A stretch of DNA of 64,000 nucleotides from Minwuia sp. (GTDB taxonomy: Bacteria > Pseudomonadota > Alphaproteobacteria > Minwuiales > Minwuiaceae), in NCBI GenBank assembly GCA_029210175.1, contig JARGPL010000003.1, positions 186,001-250,000 of the forward strand, written 5' to 3'. The notes beneath the pieces were generated by a model. It was not told where the DNA came from. It ran no database searches and worked only from the letters and a program-made list of their open reading frames with translations. Shown here piece after piece: positions 20,912 through 31,508 of the stretch; position 1 is the stretch's first letter, and each line of letters opens with the position of its first letter. The translations under genes and the position numbers were made by a program.

Positions 20912-20987
<76 letters not shown>

Positions 20988-21113: not shown

Positions 21114-21158
21114 GTCATCGATATCTTGCCCGACGCCAGTGGCTGGCGCGCCCTGGGG

Positions 21159-23042
21159 TCAGATGGCGCGGGACATGAAGCTGGCCATGCGGCGGCTGAA
21201 GGCCGCCGGGTCGTCGAGCGGTTCGCCTTCGATGATGCGGGCCTGGTCGAACAGCAGGCGCGCGGCTTCCTCGATGTCGGCGTCCATGCCCTTGTCGCGC
21301 AGGCGGTCCACCAGGCGGATGACCAGCGCGTGGCGGGGATTGATCTCCATCACCCGCTTCGACGCTGCATCCACCTGCTTGTGGGCCTTCAGCATCCGCT
21401 CCAGACGCATGTCCATGTCATTGTCATCGGCCACCAGGCAGACCGGGCTCTCGTTGAGACGGTCGGAGGTGCGCACGTCCTTCACGCTGTCACCCAGGGT
21501 TTCCTTGATGGCCGCGATCAGGGTTGCCAGGTCACCTTCCTTCGGGGCTTCCGGCTTTTCCGCGTCATCCTCGGAGGTGTCGCCACCGGTGATCTCCGAC
21601 AGGTCCGCCCCACCACGGGTGACGGACTTCAGTTGCTTGCCGTCATATTCGCCATTGCCCTGCAGCCAGAAATCATCGACCGCGTCGGTCAGCAACAGCA
21701 CCTCGACGTCTTTCCTGGCAAAGCCTTCCAGATGCGGGCTGCGGCGCGCCGAGGCCTCATCTTCCGCCGTGATGTAGTAGATCGCTTCCTGCCCCGGCTT
21801 CATGCGCTCAACATAGCCGTCGAGGCTGGTCAGGTCGTCACCGGTAGTACTGGCGAACCGGGCCAGCTTCAGGATGCGCGGGCCGACTTCATGGTCCTCG
21901 TAGATACCTTCCTTCAGCACCGCGCCGAAGTTGCGCCAGAACGTGGTGAACCCTTCCGGGTCCTTGTCCGCCTTCTTTTCCAGCTCGCTCAGCACACGCT
22001 TGACGATCTGGCCACGCATGTGGCGCAGCATCGGCTCGTTCTGCAGCATCTCGCGGCTGACGTTCAGGGGCAGATCTTCCGAATCCACGATGCCGCGCAG
22101 GAAACGCAGGTAGCTGGGGGCCAGCCCTTCCGCCTCATCGGTGATGAACACCCGCTTCACATACAGCTTCACGCGATGCTTGCGTTCGGGGTGGAACAGG
22201 TCGAACGGCTTTTCCGTCGGCACGAACAGCAGCAGGGTATATTCGACCTTGCCCTCGATCCGCGTGTGCAGAACCGTCCAGGGCTCATCGAACGCGCCAC
22301 CGACATGACGATAAAACTCGGTGTACTGCTGTTCCGTAATCTCCGATTTCGGGCGGGTCCAGAGCGCGGATGCCTTGTTGACCGGCTCGTTCTCCGCCTC
22401 CGCCTCGCCATCGCTGGCGCTGATGGTGATCGGCCAGGTGATGTGGTCGGAATAGGTCTCGATGATCTGGCGCAGCCGCCAGGTTTCGAGGAATTCCTTC
22501 TGCTCATCGCGGATCTTCAGCATCACCGTCGTGCCGCGTGCGTCCCGGCTGGATTCCTCGATGGTATATTCGCCGGTGCCGCCCGAAACCCAGGTGAAGG
22601 CTTCGTCACTGCCCGCGCGGCGGCTGGTGACCGATACTTCCTCCGCCACCATGAAGGCCGAATAGAAGCCGACGCCGAACTGACCGATGACGGACAGGTC
22701 CGCCGATTTCGCTTCTGCCATCTGCTCCATGAAGGCGGTCGAACCGGACCGCGCGATGGTGCCCAGGTTCTCCACCATGTCGTCGCGGTTCATGCCAACG
22801 CCATTGTCGGTGATCGACAGGGTTCCCTGATCCTTGTCCACATGCACCAGGATCCTGAAATCCGCGTCGCCGCCGGTCAGATCGGGGTCGGCGATCGCCA
22901 GATAGCGCAGCCGCTCGCAGGCGTCAGAGGCGTTCGAGATCAGCTCCCTGAGGAAGATCTCCTTTTCCGAATAGAGCGAGTGGGTGACGATATGCAGAAG
23001 TTTCGCAACCTCGGCCTGGAACTGATAGCTCTGGGCAGTCAT
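21159..23042 (-). CDS. htpG: molecular chaperone HtpG (bacterial Hsp90)
   Basis: A 627-residue Hsp90 of normal bacterial length. The N-terminal ATPase shows the GHKL motifs FLRELISNASDACERLR, ITDNGVGM and GQFGVGFYSAFMVA. The middle domain (about 225-500) and the C-terminal dimerisation domain follow, with no MEEVD tail, as in other bacteria. ATP-dependent folding of client proteins in the cytosol. The upstream DUF4340 gene of the ABC operon ends 3 bp before its start, so htpG may be co-transcribed with that operon as well as having its own promoter. Confidence 0.97.
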   Translation of the reverse strand: MTAQSYQFQAEVAKLLHIVTHSLYSEKEIFLRELISNASDACERLRYLAIADPDLTGGDADFRILVHVDKDQGTLSITDNGVGMNRDDMVENLGTIARSGSTAFMEQMAEAKSADLSVIGQFGVGFYSAFMVAEEVSVTSRRAGSDEAFTWVSGGTGEYTIEESSRDARGTTVMLKIRDEQKEFLETWRLRQIIETYSDHITWPITISASDGEAEAENEPVNKASALWTRPKSEITEQQYTEFYRHVGGAFDEPWTVLHTRIEGKVEYTLLLFVPTEKPFDLFHPERKHRVKLYVKRVFITDEAEGLAPSYLRFLRGIVDSEDLPLNVSREMLQNEPMLRHMRGQIVKRVLSELEKKADKDPEGFTTFWRNFGAVLKEGIYEDHEVGPRILKLARFASTTGDDLTSLDGYVERMKPGQEAIYYITAEDEASARRSPHLEGFARKDVEVLLLTDAVDDFWLQGNGEYDGKQLKSVTRGGADLSEITGGDTSEDDAEKPEAPKEGDLATLIAAIKETLGDSVKDVRTSDRLNESPVCLVADDNDMDMRLERMLKAHKQVDAASKRVMEINPRHALVIRLVDRLRDKGMDADIEEAARLLFDQARIIEGEPLDDPAAFSRRMASFMSRAI

Positions 23043-23045
23043 GGG

Positions 23046-24173
23046 TCAGGAGTCCTCCTCGGGCTTGGGCTTGGTCAGGGTTTCGAGTGTCGGCAGGAAG
23101 TTCTCGGCAGTGAAGGACGGGAACAGATAGGCCCAGCCATCGACCAGTTCCGCCGCCGTTCTGGCACGGGCTTCCTCGTCCGCCGCGACGATGGGGGTGG
23201 GTTCCTTGCCATCGACGCCAGGTTCAAGCTGCACGATCCGGTCGGCATCGAACTGCACGTCGAAGCGCAGCCAGAATGCATCCGCGTTGTCGGTCTTTCG
23301 CCCGGCATCCACCAGATCCACGGTCACGATCCAGCCACTCTGCGTTTCGAACACGGTGCGGGTTGCGCCGGTGAAATCGACAGTGTCCGCAGGTGCCACA
23401 TCCCTGGGCTTCAGGAATTCCAATGCCCGCCCGGTGGCAGTCAGGCGTATTTCCTGCTCCTGCAGCCCCTCCGGCAGGTCCTTCACATGGAAGTAGCCAT
23501 ATTCGCTGCGGTCCAGGCCGAGCGGCGGCTGGTCGGGATGGTTCACGGTGATATCGGTGACCACATCCTTGGTGACCTTGAACAGGGTCCGGTTCAGCCA
23601 GTCGGTGGGTGCTGGCTTCACGGTGAAGAAGCCTTCCGCCAGCCAGGTCGCATCCTGCCCGACGCGGCGGACATAGACCTTCGCCGGTTCGGTGGCACTG
23701 CCACGCTGCTTGGTCTTGCCCACGATCAGTCCGGCGAGGGTCGATCCGTCAGCCGCCGTGGCGACCACCTGCATCGAGCGGGTGTTGTCCCCCGCCTCCC
23801 CTTCAGCCAGGGGCTTCGGATCGGTCAGGCCCAGGCGGTCATGCAACGCCGGATCAGCCGTCTTCGGCGCGATGACCGTTGCGCGCGACAGGGCGACAAC
23901 AAGGCGTTTCACCTCATCCGCGTCTGCCGGATAGCCGGCACGCGCATCATGGTGCCAGGTGCCCCCGTCATCGCGGCTGAGGCTCCATTCACCCTTCGGT
24001 GTGACGAACGCCAGCCGGGTGATGTCATTGACCTGATCGGCCAGTTCGGGGAACAGCAGCTGGCCATAGTCCTGGGCCGCCAGCCGTTCGGCCTTCCGGT
24101 CCAGAACCGTGTAGGCGGCGATGACGCTGGCCAGAGTCAGGGCGGCGACAATGATCCACAGATTGCGGCGCAT
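23046..24173 (-). CDS. DUF4340 protein, accessory component of a gliding-type ABC system
   Basis: A 375-residue protein with one N-terminal membrane anchor (LWIIVAALTLASVIAAYTVL, about 5-24) and a large soluble part rich in beta-strands, presumably periplasmic. The GEWSLSRDDGGTWHHDA segment near 60-76 is typical of DUF4340. Such proteins are encoded beside GldG-type ABC auxiliary proteins in many proteobacteria; their function is not established. It is the last gene of the four-gene ABC operon, 2 bp after the GldG-like gene. Confidence 0.8.
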   Translation of the reverse strand: MRRNLWIIVAALTLASVIAAYTVLDRKAERLAAQDYGQLLFPELADQVNDITRLAFVTPKGEWSLSRDDGGTWHHDARAGYPADADEVKRLVVALSRATVIAPKTADPALHDRLGLTDPKPLAEGEAGDNTRSMQVVATAADGSTLAGLIVGKTKQRGSATEPAKVYVRRVGQDATWLAEGFFTVKPAPTDWLNRTLFKVTKDVVTDITVNHPDQPPLGLDRSEYGYFHVKDLPEGLQEQEIRLTATGRALEFLKPRDVAPADTVDFTGATRTVFETQSGWIVTVDLVDAGRKTDNADAFWLRFDVQFDADRIVQLEPGVDGKEPTPIVAADEEARARTAAELVDGWAYLFPSFTAENFLPTLETLTKPKPEEDS

Positions 24174-24175
24174 GC

Positions 24176-26077
24176 TCAGGCCTCCTTCATCGACTGGCTG
24201 CGACGGCGACGGCCCCGTCGCCAGAACGCCAGGATCATGGCGACGACAAACACCAGCGCCGGCATGGCACCGATGGTGATCAGCTTGATCGTGCTCTGCA
24301 GTTCATCGATATCGCGCCGCAGGCTCAGTTGCACGCCGCGCAGTTCGCGACGGGTCTGCAGCACATCCTTCTGGAACGCTTCGATGGCCTGCGCCTCTTC
24401 CGAAGACAACAGCTGGCCGCCGCCTTCACCCGCACGGTTCTGCAGTTCAGCCAGCTTCGCCTCGGTTTCCTTCAGACGGGCTTCCAGTTCCTGTTCCTGC
24501 TGCAGGTACTGCTGTTCAGCCGCACGGCGCAGTTCGTCGACGACCGTGAATGGGCGATCCCCCTCACCGCGGCTGCGCAGTCCGATCAGATCGCTGGAAC
24601 CCGCCAGATTGTCCAGGGCGTTGATCAGGAAGTTGGCGTTGCCCGCGGTAGGCTGTGCCACTTCCTGTCCGAACACGGCCTGGCGGTTGAGCCAGTATGA
24701 ATCCTCGATGAAGTCGGCATCGGCGACCAGGATCAGGCTGACCGGTGCCTCCGATGTCGCAAGGTGGGGTGCCTCGACACCTTCGGGTGCAGCGTCGAAG
24801 GCCGACGGCAGGATACCGCTCAACCGGGCTGCCAGCACGAAGGGGCGGTCTTCCGACACGAACTCTGCCTGCAGCGCGGTCGGGTCCGGGCGGAACCTGA
24901 TCTTCGATGTCGGCATGCGCATGGCGTCCGTGGTCGAGGTGATCAGCGGCACCGCGGTGAGCGGGCTGTCCACTGCCATCTCGATATACCCGATGGAGGG
25001 CAACAGCAGCGGCAGGCTCAGATCAGCCGTCACCGGGTCATCTTCGTTCAGCGCCCGGCCTGCGGCCTGTATCCAGGCAATGTAGTCCACCAGTTGCCGC
25101 CGCCCGCGCCCGACATTGACGCGGGTCGCAAGGGTGCGGTCGACCACCATCATGCCGGGTTCGATGCGTACGCCCCAGGCATCCAGCAAGGTCGGCAGCA
25201 GGCTGTCGTGCTTGTCCAGTGGATCGGGCGCACTGCCCGGCGTCGGCAGCCGCACACCGACCTCGGAGAACACATCGGCCATCACCATGGCCTTGCCGCC
25301 CCCCAGGATGTACTGGTCAACGGCATAGAGCTGTCGTTCGGTCAGGCCACGGGCGTGGGCCAGCAGGATGACGTCGATGTCGGGGGCGATCTCCTCCCAC
25401 TGGCGCAGGGGCACATCGACCTCGAAGAACTGACGCAGCGGATCCATGATGCCATAGGGCAGGCTCTCGCCCCGCATGGCCGCCTGCACGCCGCCCGGAC
25501 CGAATTCCAGCGGGAAGCTGGTGATGATCATCAGCTTCGGCTTGTCGGGGTTGGACAGGCCATAGATCAGGCGGGTCAGGTCATATTCCAGGAACCGGTC
25601 ACGATCCGGCTGGAAGAACGCCACGGTCTGCTGGTCATCGGTGGTGTTCTGGCCAACGAGGCCGAAGTAGAACGTGTCGCCGCCCTGGCCCAGCGGCACA
25701 CCGCTCAGGCCCGCGTCCACCGCCGCGTCCTCATATTCGGTGAACGGCTCCGGATCGATCAGTTCCAGCCGGATGCGACCGTCGGCGATGGTGCGGAATT
25801 CCTCCAGCATGCTCATCACCCGTGCCGCATGGTTGCGGATCTCCGGCACCGACCCGGCAAGCGAGGCGGAATAATAGAGCTGAAGCGTGATGTCCTCATC
25901 CAGGTTCGACAGCACGTTGCGGGTGCCGTCGGACAGGGTGTAGAGGCCGTTTTCCGTCAGGTCGAGGCGGCTGTTCTTCAGGGTGTCGTCGGCGACGATG
26001 TTCACCGCGAAGAACAGGATCGCCAGCAGGCCGATACCTGAGAAGGCGAGGAATTTCTGGCTGTTGAGCTGGTTCAT
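24176..26077 (-). CDS. GldG-family ABC transporter auxiliary protein
   Basis: A 633-residue protein with an N-terminal membrane helix (FLAFSGIGLLAILFFAVNIVA, about 9-28), an extended extracytoplasmic part (about 30-590) with the GldG-type LTENGLYTLSDGTRNVL segment, a coiled-coil-like EQQYLQQEQELEARLKETEA region near 520-545, and a C-terminal helix (IGAMPALVFVVAMILAFW) followed by a basic RRGRRRR tail. In Bacteroidetes GldG works with GldA and GldF in gliding, but proteobacterial homologues have no known gliding role. It lies 10 bp after the permease gene. Confidence 0.85.
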   Translation of the reverse strand: MNQLNSQKFLAFSGIGLLAILFFAVNIVADDTLKNSRLDLTENGLYTLSDGTRNVLSNLDEDITLQLYYSASLAGSVPEIRNHAARVMSMLEEFRTIADGRIRLELIDPEPFTEYEDAAVDAGLSGVPLGQGGDTFYFGLVGQNTTDDQQTVAFFQPDRDRFLEYDLTRLIYGLSNPDKPKLMIITSFPLEFGPGGVQAAMRGESLPYGIMDPLRQFFEVDVPLRQWEEIAPDIDVILLAHARGLTERQLYAVDQYILGGGKAMVMADVFSEVGVRLPTPGSAPDPLDKHDSLLPTLLDAWGVRIEPGMMVVDRTLATRVNVGRGRRQLVDYIAWIQAAGRALNEDDPVTADLSLPLLLPSIGYIEMAVDSPLTAVPLITSTTDAMRMPTSKIRFRPDPTALQAEFVSEDRPFVLAARLSGILPSAFDAAPEGVEAPHLATSEAPVSLILVADADFIEDSYWLNRQAVFGQEVAQPTAGNANFLINALDNLAGSSDLIGLRSRGEGDRPFTVVDELRRAAEQQYLQQEQELEARLKETEAKLAELQNRAGEGGGQLLSSEEAQAIEAFQKDVLQTRRELRGVQLSLRRDIDELQSTIKLITIGAMPALVFVVAMILAFWRRGRRRRSQSMKEA

Positions 26078-26087
26078 GTCTCTGTCC

Positions 26088-26825
26088 TCAGCCCGCGAAT
26101 TTCTTGTGTTCGATGATGATCATGTTGACGAACAGCCAGACCCCGATCAGCGACGCGAAGAACACGAGGTCGCGCAGGTCGATGACCCCGCCGATGATCG
26201 ACTGGAAATGCGTGATGAAGCTGAAACCGGCGATCTGATCGACCAGCAGGTCCGGTGCCCAGCCGCTGACGAAATCCAGCACGATGGGTGTGCCGGACAC
26301 CGTGAACAGAAAGCAGACCCCGGTGGACACCACAAAGGCGATCACCTGGTTCTGGGTCAGCGACGACAGGCACGACGTGATGGCCAGATACCCGCCCGCC
26401 ATCAGCAGCGCACCGACATAGCTGGCCAGGATCACCCCATGGTCCGGGTCACCCAGATAGCTGACCATCAGCCAGAACGGGAACGTCAGCGCCAGCGCGA
26501 TGCCGACAAAGGCCCAGGCGGCGAGGAACTTGCCGATGACTGCCGCCGGAACCGAGATCGGCAGGGTCAGCAGCAGTTCGATGGTGCCGGTCTTGCGCTC
26601 TTCCGACCACAGCCGCATGCCGATGGCCGGGATCAGGAACAGGTACAGCCAGGGCAGGTAAGTGAAGAAGCTCAACAGGTCTGCCTGACCACGCTCGAAG
26701 AAGTTGCCCAGGTAGAACGCGAAGGCTGCCGTCGTCAGCAGGAAGATGACGATGAACACCCAGGCGACCGGGGTGGCGAAATATCCGGCAAGTTCCCGCC
26801 GGAAAACGGTTGTCATGGCACCCAT
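26088..26825 (-). CDS. ABC-2-type permease (GldF-like)
   Basis: A 245-residue integral membrane protein with six predicted helices, including FATPVAWVFIVIFLLTTAAF and VIAFVVSTGVCFLFTVSG. The SEERKTGTIELLLTLPIS segment after the second helix is characteristic of ABC-2/GldF/NosY permeases. It starts 3 bp after the ATPase gene; GGGGAACTGAGCC before the ATG provides the ribosome binding site. It forms the membrane channel with the ATPase next door. Confidence 0.9.
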   Translation of the reverse strand: MGAMTTVFRRELAGYFATPVAWVFIVIFLLTTAAFAFYLGNFFERGQADLLSFFTYLPWLYLFLIPAIGMRLWSEERKTGTIELLLTLPISVPAAVIGKFLAAWAFVGIALALTFPFWLMVSYLGDPDHGVILASYVGALLMAGGYLAITSCLSSLTQNQVIAFVVSTGVCFLFTVSGTPIVLDFVSGWAPDLLVDQIAGFSFITHFQSIIGGVIDLRDLVFFASLIGVWLFVNMIIIEHKKFAG

Positions 26826-26828
26826 GGC

Positions 26829-27761
26829 TCAGTTCCCCTGCGTTATGGATCGGAAGACTTCGTCCATCCGACCCGGATCGACATAGAACGCCCCGATCTG
26901 CCAGCCCCGCGCGCCGGCAAGCTGTGACACGCCGTCGGTGACCGTGGCGGTGCCTTCGGGAAAGACCACCACACGGCGGTCCCCGTCCGGTTCCACGCTG
27001 GCGACGCCCGGCACGCGGATCAGATCGGCGCGCAGCGTTTCGAAGTCCGGCTGATTGTCGCCCTTCAGCTCCAGCACCACGGCGTTGTGGAACCGCGACC
27101 GGCCCATCAGTTCGCCGGGCGTGCCGTCCGCCACCACCTTGCCATGGGCGATGATCAGCGCCCGGCTGCAGACGGCGGAGACCTCTTCCAGGATATGGGT
27201 GGAGATGATGATGGCCTTTTCCGGGGCCAGTTCCTGGATCAGGGTGCGCACCTGAAACTTCTGGTTCGGGTCCAGGCCATCCGTCGGCTCATCCAGGATC
27301 AGGATCTCCGGATCATGCAGTAGCGCCTGCGCCAGTCCGACGCGACGCTTGAAACCCTTCGACAGGGTCTCGATCGGCTGTTGCATGACGCGACCGATCT
27401 CCACCCGCTCGGTGATTTCGGCGATCCGCTGCTTGCGCTCGCGACCGCTCAGGCCCCGCACGCTTGCGATGAAGTCGAGGAACCCGGCAGGCGTCATGTC
27501 GGGATAGGCCGGCGCGCCTTCCGGCAGATAGCCGATGCGGGTCTTCGCCATGATCGGGTTGGCCAGCGCATCCAGCTGATTGACGGTCACGGTGCCAGCA
27601 CTGGGACCAAGGAAGCCGGTGATCATCTTCATGGTGGTGGACTTGCCAGCACCATTGGGGCCGAGGAACCCCAGCACTTCGCCGCGCTGAACCTCGAAAC
27701 TGATCCCGTCGACGGCTGTGAACGGACCGAACCGCTTCACCAGATCCCGGACTTCCAGCAT
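26829..27761 (-). CDS. ABC transporter ATP-binding protein (GldA-like)
   Basis: A 310-residue ABC ATPase. Walker A is GPNGAGKSTT, the signature is LSKGFKRRVGLAQALL, and Walker B is ILILDEPTDGLDP. The ~80-residue C-terminal extension (after about 225) is normal for GldA/CcmA-type ATPases paired with ABC-2 permeases. I chose the ATG at 27761 (MLEVRDLVKRFG) as the start of the ATPase domain; a GTG 48 bp upstream would add residues with no family counterpart. First gene of the four-gene operon, divergent from the thiolase-like gene. Confidence 0.9.
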   Translation of the reverse strand: MLEVRDLVKRFGPFTAVDGISFEVQRGEVLGFLGPNGAGKSTTMKMITGFLGPSAGTVTVNQLDALANPIMAKTRIGYLPEGAPAYPDMTPAGFLDFIASVRGLSGRERKQRIAEITERVEIGRVMQQPIETLSKGFKRRVGLAQALLHDPEILILDEPTDGLDPNQKFQVRTLIQELAPEKAIIISTHILEEVSAVCSRALIIAHGKVVADGTPGELMGRSRFHNAVVLELKGDNQPDFETLRADLIRVPGVASVEPDGDRRVVVFPEGTATVTDGVSQLAGARGWQIGAFYVDPGRMDEVFRSITQGN

Positions 27762-28005
27762 GGCTGCCACGTCGGTACTGCTCCCTTGATCGTGCGCCTT
27801 GACCAGCACCGCCGCCGAAACGGGTTCGGGGCCGGGCTGCGGCGCATCTGCCTGTCATGCATCCAACTGTCGTGACCGGAGGGGGGCCGGATCGTGCTTC
27901 ACCTCTGGCCGCGCCATCATCTAGTCGCCCCTGCCCTGCGGTTCAAGGGTTTCAAGCCGGACGCCCGTCGCTGTAGGCTGTGAGGCAGCGTCTGGGGAGG
28001 CACGA

Positions 28006-29160
28006 ATGACATCATCGAAAGCAGCAATAACCGGCGTCGCCAATACGCGTTGCGGGCGGCTGGAAGGTTCCACCTGCCTCGGCCTGCATGCAGAGGTGGC
28101 GCGCGGTGCCGTGGCCGACGCAGGGCTGGAACTGGGGGACGTGGACGGTCTGATCTGCGCCTATTCCTTCACCGAGCCGCATCCCATGCTCGCCTCCGTC
28201 GTGGCGGAGTATCTGGGCATCCAGCCCGCCTATTCAGCCTGTGTCAGCGCGGGCGGGGCCTCTGGCGCGCTGCAGGTCATGACCGCCAAGTCGCTGGTGG
28301 AAAGCGGCATGTGCCGCCACGTGCTCTGCCTGACCGGCGACACCCGGATGAGCGGCATGGCCCCCGGTGCCGCCGTCGCCGCCCTGGCCCGGTTCGGCCA
28401 CGGGCAGTTCGAAGTGCCCTATGGCATCACCATTCCGGCGGCCTATGGCATGGTCGCGCAACGCTACATGCATGACACCGGGCTGACCCTGTCCGATATG
28501 GCACACATTGCCGTCACCACCCGCAACCATGCCCGCCGCCACCCGGATGCGCAGATGCGCAAACCGCTCAGCCATGCCGAGGTGATGGCCAGCCGCCCGA
28601 TCGCGGAACCGCTGCGGCTGTTCGACTGCGCCCTGATCTCCGACGGGGCCGCCGGTATCCTGGTCTCCGCCGCGCCGACGGGCAACGGCGCGGAGGTCCG
28701 CATCGTCGGCGCCGGGCAGAAGAACACCCACGAACACCTGATCGCCGCGCCGCGCGACCTGCAATCCTTCGGCTGCAAGTTCAGCGCACGGGACGCCTTC
28801 GCCGAGGCCGGGATGACCACCGCCGACATCGACGTGGCGGAGATCTACGACAGTTTCACCATCACCCTGGCGATCGAACTGGAATCCATCGGTTTCTTCC
28901 CCAAGGGATCGGTGGGGGAAGCCGTGTCCGACGGGGCGCTGGACCTCGGCGGCACCCTGCCCTGCAACACCCACGGCGGCCTGCTCAGCTTTGGCCATTC
29001 CGGCGCGGCGGGCGGCGCGTTTCATGTGGTGGAGGCGGTCAGGCAGCTACGCGGCCAGGCCGACAGCCGCCAGGTCGCGAACGCCAGCCGCGCCTTCGTC
29101 CATGGCGACGGCGGCGTGCTCTCCGCCCATGTGTCCCTGATTCTGGAGCGTCTGTCATGA
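28006..29160 (+). CDS. thiolase-fold (SCPx/Ltp-like) protein lacking the thiolase cysteines; probable acyl-CoA aldolase or lyase
   Basis: A 384-residue thiolase-superfamily protein. The usual N-terminal nucleophile motif (C-A/G-S-G) reads GGASGAL at 83-89, with Gly84 where Cys should be. The C-terminal Cys loop reads VHGDGGVLS, also without Cys. The conserved NTHGGLLSFGHSGAAGG is intact. The gene overlaps a DUF35 OB-fold gene by 4 nt. Cys-less SCPx-type proteins with a DUF35 partner are known as retro-aldolases cleaving beta-hydroxyacyl-CoA side chains (Ltp2 with ChsH2 in steroid catabolism), so a lyase reading is inferred. GGGGAGG precedes the ATG. An annotation of 'acetyl-CoA acetyltransferase' would probably mislead. 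Confidence 0.8.
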   Translation: MTSSKAAITGVANTRCGRLEGSTCLGLHAEVARGAVADAGLELGDVDGLICAYSFTEPHPMLASVVAEYLGIQPAYSACVSAGGASGALQVMTAKSLVESGMCRHVLCLTGDTRMSGMAPGAAVAALARFGHGQFEVPYGITIPAAYGMVAQRYMHDTGLTLSDMAHIAVTTRNHARRHPDAQMRKPLSHAEVMASRPIAEPLRLFDCALISDGAAGILVSAAPTGNGAEVRIVGAGQKNTHEHLIAAPRDLQSFGCKFSARDAFAEAGMTTADIDVAEIYDSFTITLAIELESIGFFPKGSVGEAVSDGALDLGGTLPCNTHGGLLSFGHSGAAGGAFHVVEAVRQLRGQADSRQVANASRAFVHGDGGVLSAHVSLILERLS

Positions 29161-29585
29161 GCCGCGAAACACCGACGACAGCACCCGCGACCGACCTGCC
29201 CCTGCCGCCGCCCAACGCCGAAAGCCAGGCGTTCTGGGACGCTGCCCGCGACGGCCACCTGCTGCTGACCCGCTGCACAGCCTGCGACGCCGTGCAGTTC
29301 CCGCCACAACACAGCTGCACCGCCTGCGGCGGCACGACCGGCAATCCGTTCACGGCGTCGGGCACCGGCGAAATCTTCACCTTCACCATCAACCACCGCG
29401 CCCCCAGCCCCGCCTTCAAGGCCCGCGCCCCCTACATCATCGCCCTGGTCGACCTGGCCGAAGGCCCGCGCCTGATGATGAACGTCATCAACTGCGCCCC
29501 GGAGGACGTGAAGATCGGCATGACAGTGAAGATCGTGTTCGAGGCGCGGGGGGACATGGCGCTTCCGCAGGCGGAGTTGGTTTGA
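29157..29585 (+). CDS. DUF35 Zn-ribbon/OB-fold partner of the thiolase-like protein
   Basis: A 142-residue protein with an N-terminal rubredoxin-like zinc ribbon, CTACDAVQFPPQHSCTACGG (two C-x-x-C pairs at about 40-43 and 54-57), followed by an OB-fold that binds the acyl-CoA in known relatives. Residues 1-20 are proline/threonine-rich. Translation is coupled to the thiolase-like gene (ATGA overlap). Such proteins form complexes with SCPx-type thiolases and aldolases, placing the substrate in the active site. Confidence 0.88.
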   Translation: MSRETPTTAPATDLPLPPPNAESQAFWDAARDGHLLLTRCTACDAVQFPPQHSCTACGGTTGNPFTASGTGEIFTFTINHRAPSPAFKARAPYIIALVDLAEGPRLMMNVINCAPEDVKIGMTVKIVFEARGDMALPQAELV

Positions 29586-29684
29586 GGCGACTGCCCACGA
29601 TCACCAGTGGAATCAAGGCATCAAACGAGCCTATGGACCTCCAGAGATGGCAATCTGGCTCGTCAATATTTCAATCGACCTGCT

Positions 29685-31040
29685 TCAACGCTCAAAATCC
29701 TCGGAGTCTTCAGAGATCGCTTCGGTCGTCACATCATCGGCAGATGATCGATCTCCTTTGATTTTTGGTGCGGGTCGCCGCCATGCGATCAAGTTCGACC
29801 CGATCTCCTGATAAAATTCAGGAACAAGTCGTTCGAGATCAGAAATGAAGTTCTCGCGCTGTGCGAACCGGGCGCCAAGGCGTTTTGACGAAAATATCTG
29901 GAGACTGTGTGGTGCAACCTTCTTGTCCCCACCTAACCGGGACGGATCTTCTATTGCCTCGGCGAGCGTGCATTGGGTGGGCTCGTTTCTACCAGGCCAC
30001 AAAAGACGAATGTACACATCGCCCACATTTTCTGATTTTATTTGACGTAACAGCCAGTTAACACGCGCACTTGTCTTGACCTTGTCTTCTGGCGCACGGA
30101 GAGTCATCCCGACGTCGAGACATCTGCGTGTCAAATCAGCGATCACCTCGATCGGCGCGGCAGCATCGGGTATGTCCAGTTCCGCTGTTAGTTGGTGCTT
30201 CTCGCGCAGGATCGCCAGTTCATCTTTTGTGCGAGCGGAGGGAGCGGTCCTGTGTTTTCTCGGCAAACGCTCTGAAACATTGGTTTCTGTCATTCGACTC
30301 ATTATCAGCGCGAGATCACGCGTCTCCTGATGCCAGGCATTCAGGACAGACAATGCGTCAGAGGACTTTGCTGAAACGACGCCACCACTTGATACAAGCT
30401 TGTTCAACTCGCCCCATTCTGTTGGCATTCGGTCGAAACCGCGAACTCCCGCACTTTCGTGCGAAAGAAAGCGGCGCAGCTCATTCAATATGACCCGCTG
30501 ATCAGAATCCGAGATTTCTTCCTGGCTCAGGAGAACATCAGCCTCGGTGAGGATATGCATCCATGACCAATGGAAAACCGGAATCTTGGATTTGCTGCCC
30601 GCAACCGTTTCGAGAGGATGCACGTGCGGGTTGGCCGAGAATTGGTTGGATATAGATATAACGCAGTCAATCTTGTTGTCTTTCGCCAGTACACGATATT
30701 TTTCGATCTGGTCCACTTGGAGTTCATTCTTGCCGACCTTTGATTCGATCAGTGCCCGCCATTCACGACTGCCGGTCCGGGCAATGATCAAGCCATCTGG
30801 GCGATCACTCGAATCCTTGGGCCGGTCTTTCAGCACAACTTCCGTGTAGGTTTCGATCTTCGTCCTGACACCCACGCGCTGACCAAGACTGCGCAAGAGG
30901 GCCGCTCCGAACTCATCCACATTCGACAAACAAGACAGCACGATTGACGTTGTCCGCCCTTCTTTCGATGTTGTGGAGAGGACGGGGAACAAGCGCGCTT
31001 GCTCTCCTTGGACAACAAAAGATGGAAGCGCTTCAGACAT
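29685..31040 (-). CDS. orphan PD-(D/E)XK nuclease-like protein beside tRNA-Leu
   Basis: A 451-residue protein I cannot place in a named family. The N-terminal third looks like a PD-(D/E)XK nuclease core: RPDGLI (Asp82), ALIESKVG (Glu99, Lys101) and QIEKY (Gln111, Tyr115), the last being the QxxxY motif seen in RecB-like nucleases. ISNQF follows on the next strand. The C-terminal half contains WLLRQI and YIRLLWPG and may be a separate recognition domain. I chose the ATG at 31040; a TTG at 31100 would add 20 residues with no support. The gene and its flanks are visibly richer in A and T than the rest of the window and lie 212 bp from the 3' end of tRNA-Leu, which suggests transfer. A defence or stress role is only a guess. 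Confidence 0.75.
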   Translation of the reverse strand: MSEALPSFVVQGEQARLFPVLSTTSKEGRTTSIVLSCLSNVDEFGAALLRSLGQRVGVRTKIETYTEVVLKDRPKDSSDRPDGLIIARTGSREWRALIESKVGKNELQVDQIEKYRVLAKDNKIDCVISISNQFSANPHVHPLETVAGSKSKIPVFHWSWMHILTEADVLLSQEEISDSDQRVILNELRRFLSHESAGVRGFDRMPTEWGELNKLVSSGGVVSAKSSDALSVLNAWHQETRDLALIMSRMTETNVSERLPRKHRTAPSARTKDELAILREKHQLTAELDIPDAAAPIEVIADLTRRCLDVGMTLRAPEDKVKTSARVNWLLRQIKSENVGDVYIRLLWPGRNEPTQCTLAEAIEDPSRLGGDKKVAPHSLQIFSSKRLGARFAQRENFISDLERLVPEFYQEIGSNLIAWRRPAPKIKGDRSSADDVTTEAISEDSEDFER

Positions 31041-31252
31041 GTTTGACCCCAGACAAGTTCGTATCGAACACCTGTAACCAAGCAATCCTGATGAATGCAA
31101 TCTTCACGCGCAACAGGAAATTTACTCGCACGCGAATGTAGATGTTGAGGCGCATTGCCTATTGGCCAGCGTACTTGCGTCAGAGCAGATGTCCCCAGCA
31201 TTCCGGAAAATCGGCGACAAGAATGCATCCGGCATCGTCTCACCGAAAAAGC

Positions 31253-31339
31253 TGGTAGCCGCTGTGGGACTTGAACCCACACGGGCATGCGCCCAACGGA
31301 TTTTAAGTCCGGTCTGTCTACCAATTCCAGCAAGCGGCC
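31253..31339 (-). tRNA. tRNA-Leu (anticodon TAA)
   Basis: An 87-nt class II tRNA with encoded CCA and a long variable arm (TTGGGCGCATGCCCGT). The acceptor is GGCCGCT/AGCGGCT with the G1-U72 wobble also seen in E. coli tRNA-Leu(UAA). The anticodon loop is CTTAAAA and the T-arm is GTGGG-TTCAAGT-CCCAC. A short T-run follows the CCA. It diverges from galU. Its 3' end faces the AT-richer nuclease-like gene. Confidence 0.96.
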
Positions 31340-31508
31340 CAATATCCTGATGACGCGGTTGGGTGCGCGCGTCACACATCAGGTTGTGGCGGAACGCCCC
31401 GCGACTGTCCAGCGCTTGTTCTGGCGGCGGGTCCATGGCAGAAACCGCCGGTCGGGATATGGTATCGAAAGGGTGGTACCGAATCAGGCAACAGGACCGG
31501 AGCGAGCA

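Follow-up and report, generated by a model that had tools for sequence, protein, structure and literature searches.

Shedu (SduA_C, PF14082/DUF4263) is a defence nuclease in which a single protein combines a PD-(D/E)XK domain with an additional regulatory domain; this second domain binds DNA ends, thereby relieving the autoinhibition of the nuclease (PMC12904381). In this work, we compared Shedu, the VRR_NUC family (PF08774) and Mrr and the type IV restriction enzymes with a 451-aa protein encoded in the window (the whole 64-kb stretch of DNA that was analysed). Like Shedu, this protein is predicted to be a single-protein PD-(D/E)XK defence nuclease with a further, possibly regulatory domain, and profile alignment placed the D-ExK-Q motifs of the two families in register. 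The order of the parts differs: the clamp of Shedu is N-terminal and its nuclease follows, whereas the window protein has its nuclease at the N-terminus. Membership of Shedu was rejected, as neither the protein nor 30 relatives matched PF14082 and the hhalign probability was 0.4-0.9%. The PD / ExK / Q motif of VRR_NUC is likewise in register with that of the window family, and five relatives matched VRR_NUC weakly (best 5e-4); membership was rejected here as well, the window protein scoring 13 bits against a Pfam cut-off of 23.8 with an hhalign probability under 2%. Mrr and the type IV enzymes share the PD-(D/E)XK nuclease, one relative adjoins a type IV enzyme and one matched Mrr_cat at 0.058, whereas the window protein gave no significant match to them and no modified-base reader domain was recognised in it. 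More generally, nothing scored over the cut-off with the window protein in Pfam, NCBIfam, PADLOC or PHROGs, no PADLOC 2.0 family matched it at E up to 1, and no match to the PDB was obtained by sequence, single or profile. Among the weak Pfam matches of the relatives, four of eight were PD-(D/E)XK families.

The span 29685-31339 described in an earlier note on this DNA holds the nuclease ORF and tRNA-Leu(taa) (Table 1); on the other side of the nuclease gene, a convergent DUF35-type gene lies 99 bp away. The residues which that note had picked out as a nuclease motif are placed as it claimed, with RPDG at 80-83, ESK at 99-101, Q111 and Y115. We aligned the window protein with 30 full-length relatives from two phyla, with identities down to 28%. 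Mean column identity over the 31 sequences was 38%, and 16 columns were invariant (R16, L17, D82, W94, E99, K101, Q111, Y115, N132, H157, W160, G198, M205, W209, W236 and Y410). The motif is not a chance occurrence, because all five of its residues, including the D...(D/E)xK catalytic triad D82, E99 and K101, are among these invariant columns.

Table 1 Features of the nuclease locus in the window (positions of the 64-kb stretch).
Feature	Position	Strand	Remarks
tRNA-Lys(ctt)	20912..20987	+	Close to the second junction of the inversion; tRNA call, blastn comparison
Block from htpG to DUF35/thiolase genes, 8.4 kb	21156..29589		Inverted relative to three congeners; blastn against L057, L059 and L106
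Predicted PD-(D/E)XK nuclease gene, 451 aa	29685..31040	-	ATG at 31040; single-gene unit
C-terminal half, residues 196-425	29766..30455	-	Helical, then alpha/beta; AlphaFold2 and family alignment
N-terminal nuclease domain, residues 1-195	30456..31040	-	AlphaFold2 secondary-structure order; boundary approximate
Catalytic core, residues 61-131	30648..30860	-	Strands 61-70, 83-89 and 92-100, helix 109-121, strand 126-131 (AlphaFold2)
Y115 codon	30696-30698	-	Invariant
Q111 codon	30708-30710	-	Invariant
K101 codon	30738-30740	-	Invariant
E99 codon	30744-30746	-	Invariant
D82 codon	30795-30797	-	Invariant
tRNA-Leu(taa)	31253..31339	-	212 bp upstream of the nuclease gene; syntenic with galU in congeners

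The predicted structure is consistent with this reading of the motif. The AlphaFold2 model of the window protein, built from an alignment with 19 relatives (pLDDT 83.8, pTM 0.70), places helices at 26-50 ahead of the core elements listed in Table 1, which is the PD-(D/E)XK order and, at the level of secondary structure, the alpha-beta-beta-beta-alpha-beta core. D82 starts the second strand, E99 and K101 end the third, and Q111 and Y115 lie on the helix that follows. In Foldseek searches, where no match had an E below 1e-3, all those of the best 50 PDB matches with a probability of at least 0.4 are PD-(D/E)XK-fold proteins (BamHI at 0.97 and EcoT38I at 0.82; also PaqCI, AF1548 and Can2), and phage PD-(D/E)XK proteins were matched at probabilities of 0.99-1.00. 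Residue invariance, predicted secondary-structure order and Foldseek probabilities all argue for the PD-(D/E)XK core that had been proposed from the letters alone. The C-terminal half is present in all full-length relatives and gave no match in Pfam or, by sequence, in the PDB.

The nuclease gene was detected in one of the nine genomes of the host's order, that of the host itself, the other eight being without it; the outcome by which the earlier note would have been refuted, a gene shared in synteny by every close relative and of host-like composition, was not observed. Its family was found in 21 of the 385 alphaproteobacteria sampled and, across the phylum, in 12 of the 399 genomes sampled; it spans Pseudomonadota and Actinomycetota, the close relatives being mostly from Rhodobacterales. 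In the phylogenetic tree, the window protein falls inside a Rhodobacterales-rich clade of 20 rows (support 100/100), beside the proteins of two phage-like contigs, L004 and L070, and one chromosomal copy (support 92/93). The presence in one of nine genomes of the order together with the tree support horizontal acquisition of the gene. It is, as had been remarked, AT-richer than its neighbours: its GC content is 0.525, the window outside 29600-31340 having 0.641, and its GC3 is 0.55 against 0.69-0.89 in ten neighbouring genes. Family members are AT-richer than their own flanks at 34 of 39 loci, by a mean of 5.8 points. Low GC is thus a family trait in most hosts and may at the same time be a sign of transfer; because it is such a trait it gives, taken alone, no date of arrival.

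The surroundings of the gene have been rearranged. The order in three congeners is tRNA-Leu, an aminotransferase gene and the htpG-to-DUF35 block. In the host, this block is inverted, with one end close to tRNA-Lys and the other close to tRNA-Leu; the nuclease gene occupies the junction on the tRNA-Leu side, and the aminotransferase gene is missing, only a 27% paralogue having been found. The genes that follow tRNA-Leu differ between congeners; the nearest one carries a different sequence there, with a short-chain dehydrogenase-like gene recognised by eye. The earlier note had seen no duplicated tRNA 3' end by eye, and our search likewise found neither a duplicate of the tRNA-Leu 3' end nor flanking repeats. 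Its suggestion that tRNA-Leu served as a landing site for mobile DNA was not supported: there is no att duplication, and inspection by eye of the ORFs listed at 24-38 kb showed no integrase. The gene sits at an inversion junction. For want of a duplicated end, we rejected the integration of an island at tRNA-Leu; the nuclease locus is a point of rearrangement, and not a demonstrated integration site.

Across 20 related loci, we found no neighbour or operon partner that is conserved, and because of this the nuclease is regarded as a true single gene. The earlier claim that it has no partner gene stands, both at the locus itself and as regards any widely common neighbour. Its description as an orphan is apt in that sense, but dozens of full-length homologues exist. 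Several relatives stand next to or near defence genes: (i) in L018, the relative overlaps the start of zorA, which is followed by zorB and zorC (E 1e-144, 1e-97 and 1e-91), (ii) in L006, it lies between a CARF protein with an ORC-like ATPase and a UvrD/GajB-like helicase, (iii) in L097, 19 bp separate it from a type IV restriction enzyme, (iv) in L100, it adjoins a SIR2 protein, (v) in L085, it has an exonuclease (RTasSbcB) on one side and an SNF2 helicase on the other, and (vi) in L010, it is near RmrA and an integrase. A PADLOC scan of 147 automatically called neighbour genes gave 134 matching models, among them also MTase_I and PD-T7-4, against three generic matches in a control of 93 other genes taken from the window and from related genomes of the host's own order. 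Many other relatives are surrounded by housekeeping genes, away from any defence gene.

A second set of relatives has links to the Ter network. Relatives on eleven actinobacterial plasmids share 27-30% identity over 89-94% of the query, and are annotated as TerD family proteins in all ten annotated cases. In a Rhodococcus fusion, TerD occupies residues 5-171 (E 6e-47) and the nuclease region comes after; the C-terminal half is retained in the TerD fusions too, and RES, ThiF and Mov34/JAB genes lie nearby on the plasmid. In the Rhodobacterales locus L016, the relative is followed by genes for a vWA protein, a PP2C phosphatase and a kinase with a C-terminal zinc ribbon, a triad of the TerY-P type as defined in PMC11090510. 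Whereas these relatives carry TerD or adjoin such a triad, the domain is lacking from the window protein, and the host genome has no TerD gene; TerD was present only among the actinobacterial relatives, and none was found in 15 tested genomes (the host and 14 others, most of them carrying the nuclease family).

Taken together, these comparisons point towards a gene that is probably an unrecognised anti-phage defence gene, with relatives beside anti-virus systems, in phages or fused to TerD, a stress-sensor domain, and the most economical reading is that of a mobile, single-protein defence nuclease. The single-gene defence role put forward in the earlier note gains from the contrast between the defence genes beside the relatives and the few PADLOC matches in the control. 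In the mechanism that we propose, the N-terminal PD-(D/E)XK domain would use D82, E99 and K101, with Q111 and Y115, for the metal-dependent (divalent) cleavage of a nucleic acid that is most likely DNA. The C-terminal half, the obvious candidate for sensing, would act as sensor or gate: by analogy with the non-nuclease part of Shedu, it may recognise the invader or restrain the nuclease until a signal arrives. Because of the TerD fusion in actinobacteria and the TerY-P triad next door in one Rhodobacterales genome, Ter-type stress signalling could be the trigger in lineages with TerD fused in front or TerY-P adjacent. The motif and its invariance, the order of the secondary-structure elements, the horizontal distribution, the neighbourhoods with defence and phage genes and the TerD fusion were observed here; cleavage, DNA as the substrate, gating and the anti-phage effect are inferred. 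We consider it reasonably likely that the gene encodes a stand-alone defence nuclease that has spread horizontally and is gated either by its C-terminal half or by signalling of the Ter type. A narrower proposal, in which the family is a new one of Ter-triggered defence nucleases, with the trigger coming from a fused TerD, from an adjacent TerY-P in at least one alphaproteobacterium and from the C-terminal half elsewhere, is conceivable, if rather doubtful; were it true, the long-enigmatic Ter network would be tied to a concrete nuclease effector. If active, the protein would be an anti-phage nuclease so far uncounted, the window protein matching no curated model above cut-off in four libraries, and its TerD-fused form would allow a direct test of whether the Ter stress network has a nuclease output.

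The same TerD fusions and TerY-P neighbour, together with the many copies in ordinary chromosomal contexts, would also fit a nuclease that serves the Ter network in stress response or DNA repair and acts, during oxidative or metal stress, on damaged DNA and not on phages, its link with defence loci reflecting mobile islands that both share. We regard this as unlikely: the family is missing from the eight other genomes of the order and from 364 of 385 alphaproteobacteria, anti-phage systems are much commoner among the neighbours than in the control, and the tested genomes that lack TerD mostly carry the family. Some PD-(D/E)XK-fold proteins are without catalysis, and a degenerate or binding-only protein lacking nuclease activity might be envisaged here; the invariance of every catalytic residue in the 31 sequences despite a mean column identity of 38% makes it very improbable.

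The gene might instead be cargo of a temperate phage or of a gene-transfer-type element, serving that element in superinfection exclusion or inter-element competition, with the chromosomal copies left behind. This would suit the position of the closest relatives in the phage-like contigs L070, where the gene stands beside the large terminase, and L004, whose upstream gene is common to L070, as well as the integrases near the relatives in L007 and L010 and a family member inserted antisense within a gene-transfer-agent-type tail gene cluster (L089:8490-9992). It is quite improbable: 2.9 million viral contigs yielded one related locus only, 50,697 phage genomes yielded no related protein or DNA match, and the relative in L023, as close to the window protein as those of L004 and L070, has a chromosomal setting. 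Because such cargo is itself defence, this alternative overlaps with the preferred reading of a mobile single-protein defence nuclease.

Some related loci showed further features. In two relatives that are distant, a gene resembling a voltage-gated ion channel directly adjoins that of the nuclease, at L098:9627-10454 (Pfam Ion_trans), where the two genes overlap by 4 bp, and at L022:9436-10230 (by eye); being confined to these two relatives, the channel was rejected as a partner gene for its rarity. In L094, where the relative is near a terminase, the nuclease gene (L094:7870-10520) is split in two by an insertion of ~1.3 kb whose ORF looks transposase-like by eye. The ORC/CDC6-like ATPase and the CARF6-type protein of L006 form a two-gene unit (L006:4247-7013), which with the adjoining UvrD/GajB-like helicase is a possible uncharacterised defence module. 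Near the Rhodococcus fusion, genes for a hypothetical protein, a ThiF-family E1, a Mov34/JAB protease and a DUF6602 protein lie on one strand (L055:10285-14136), a set that resembles a ubiquitin-like conjugation defence operon.
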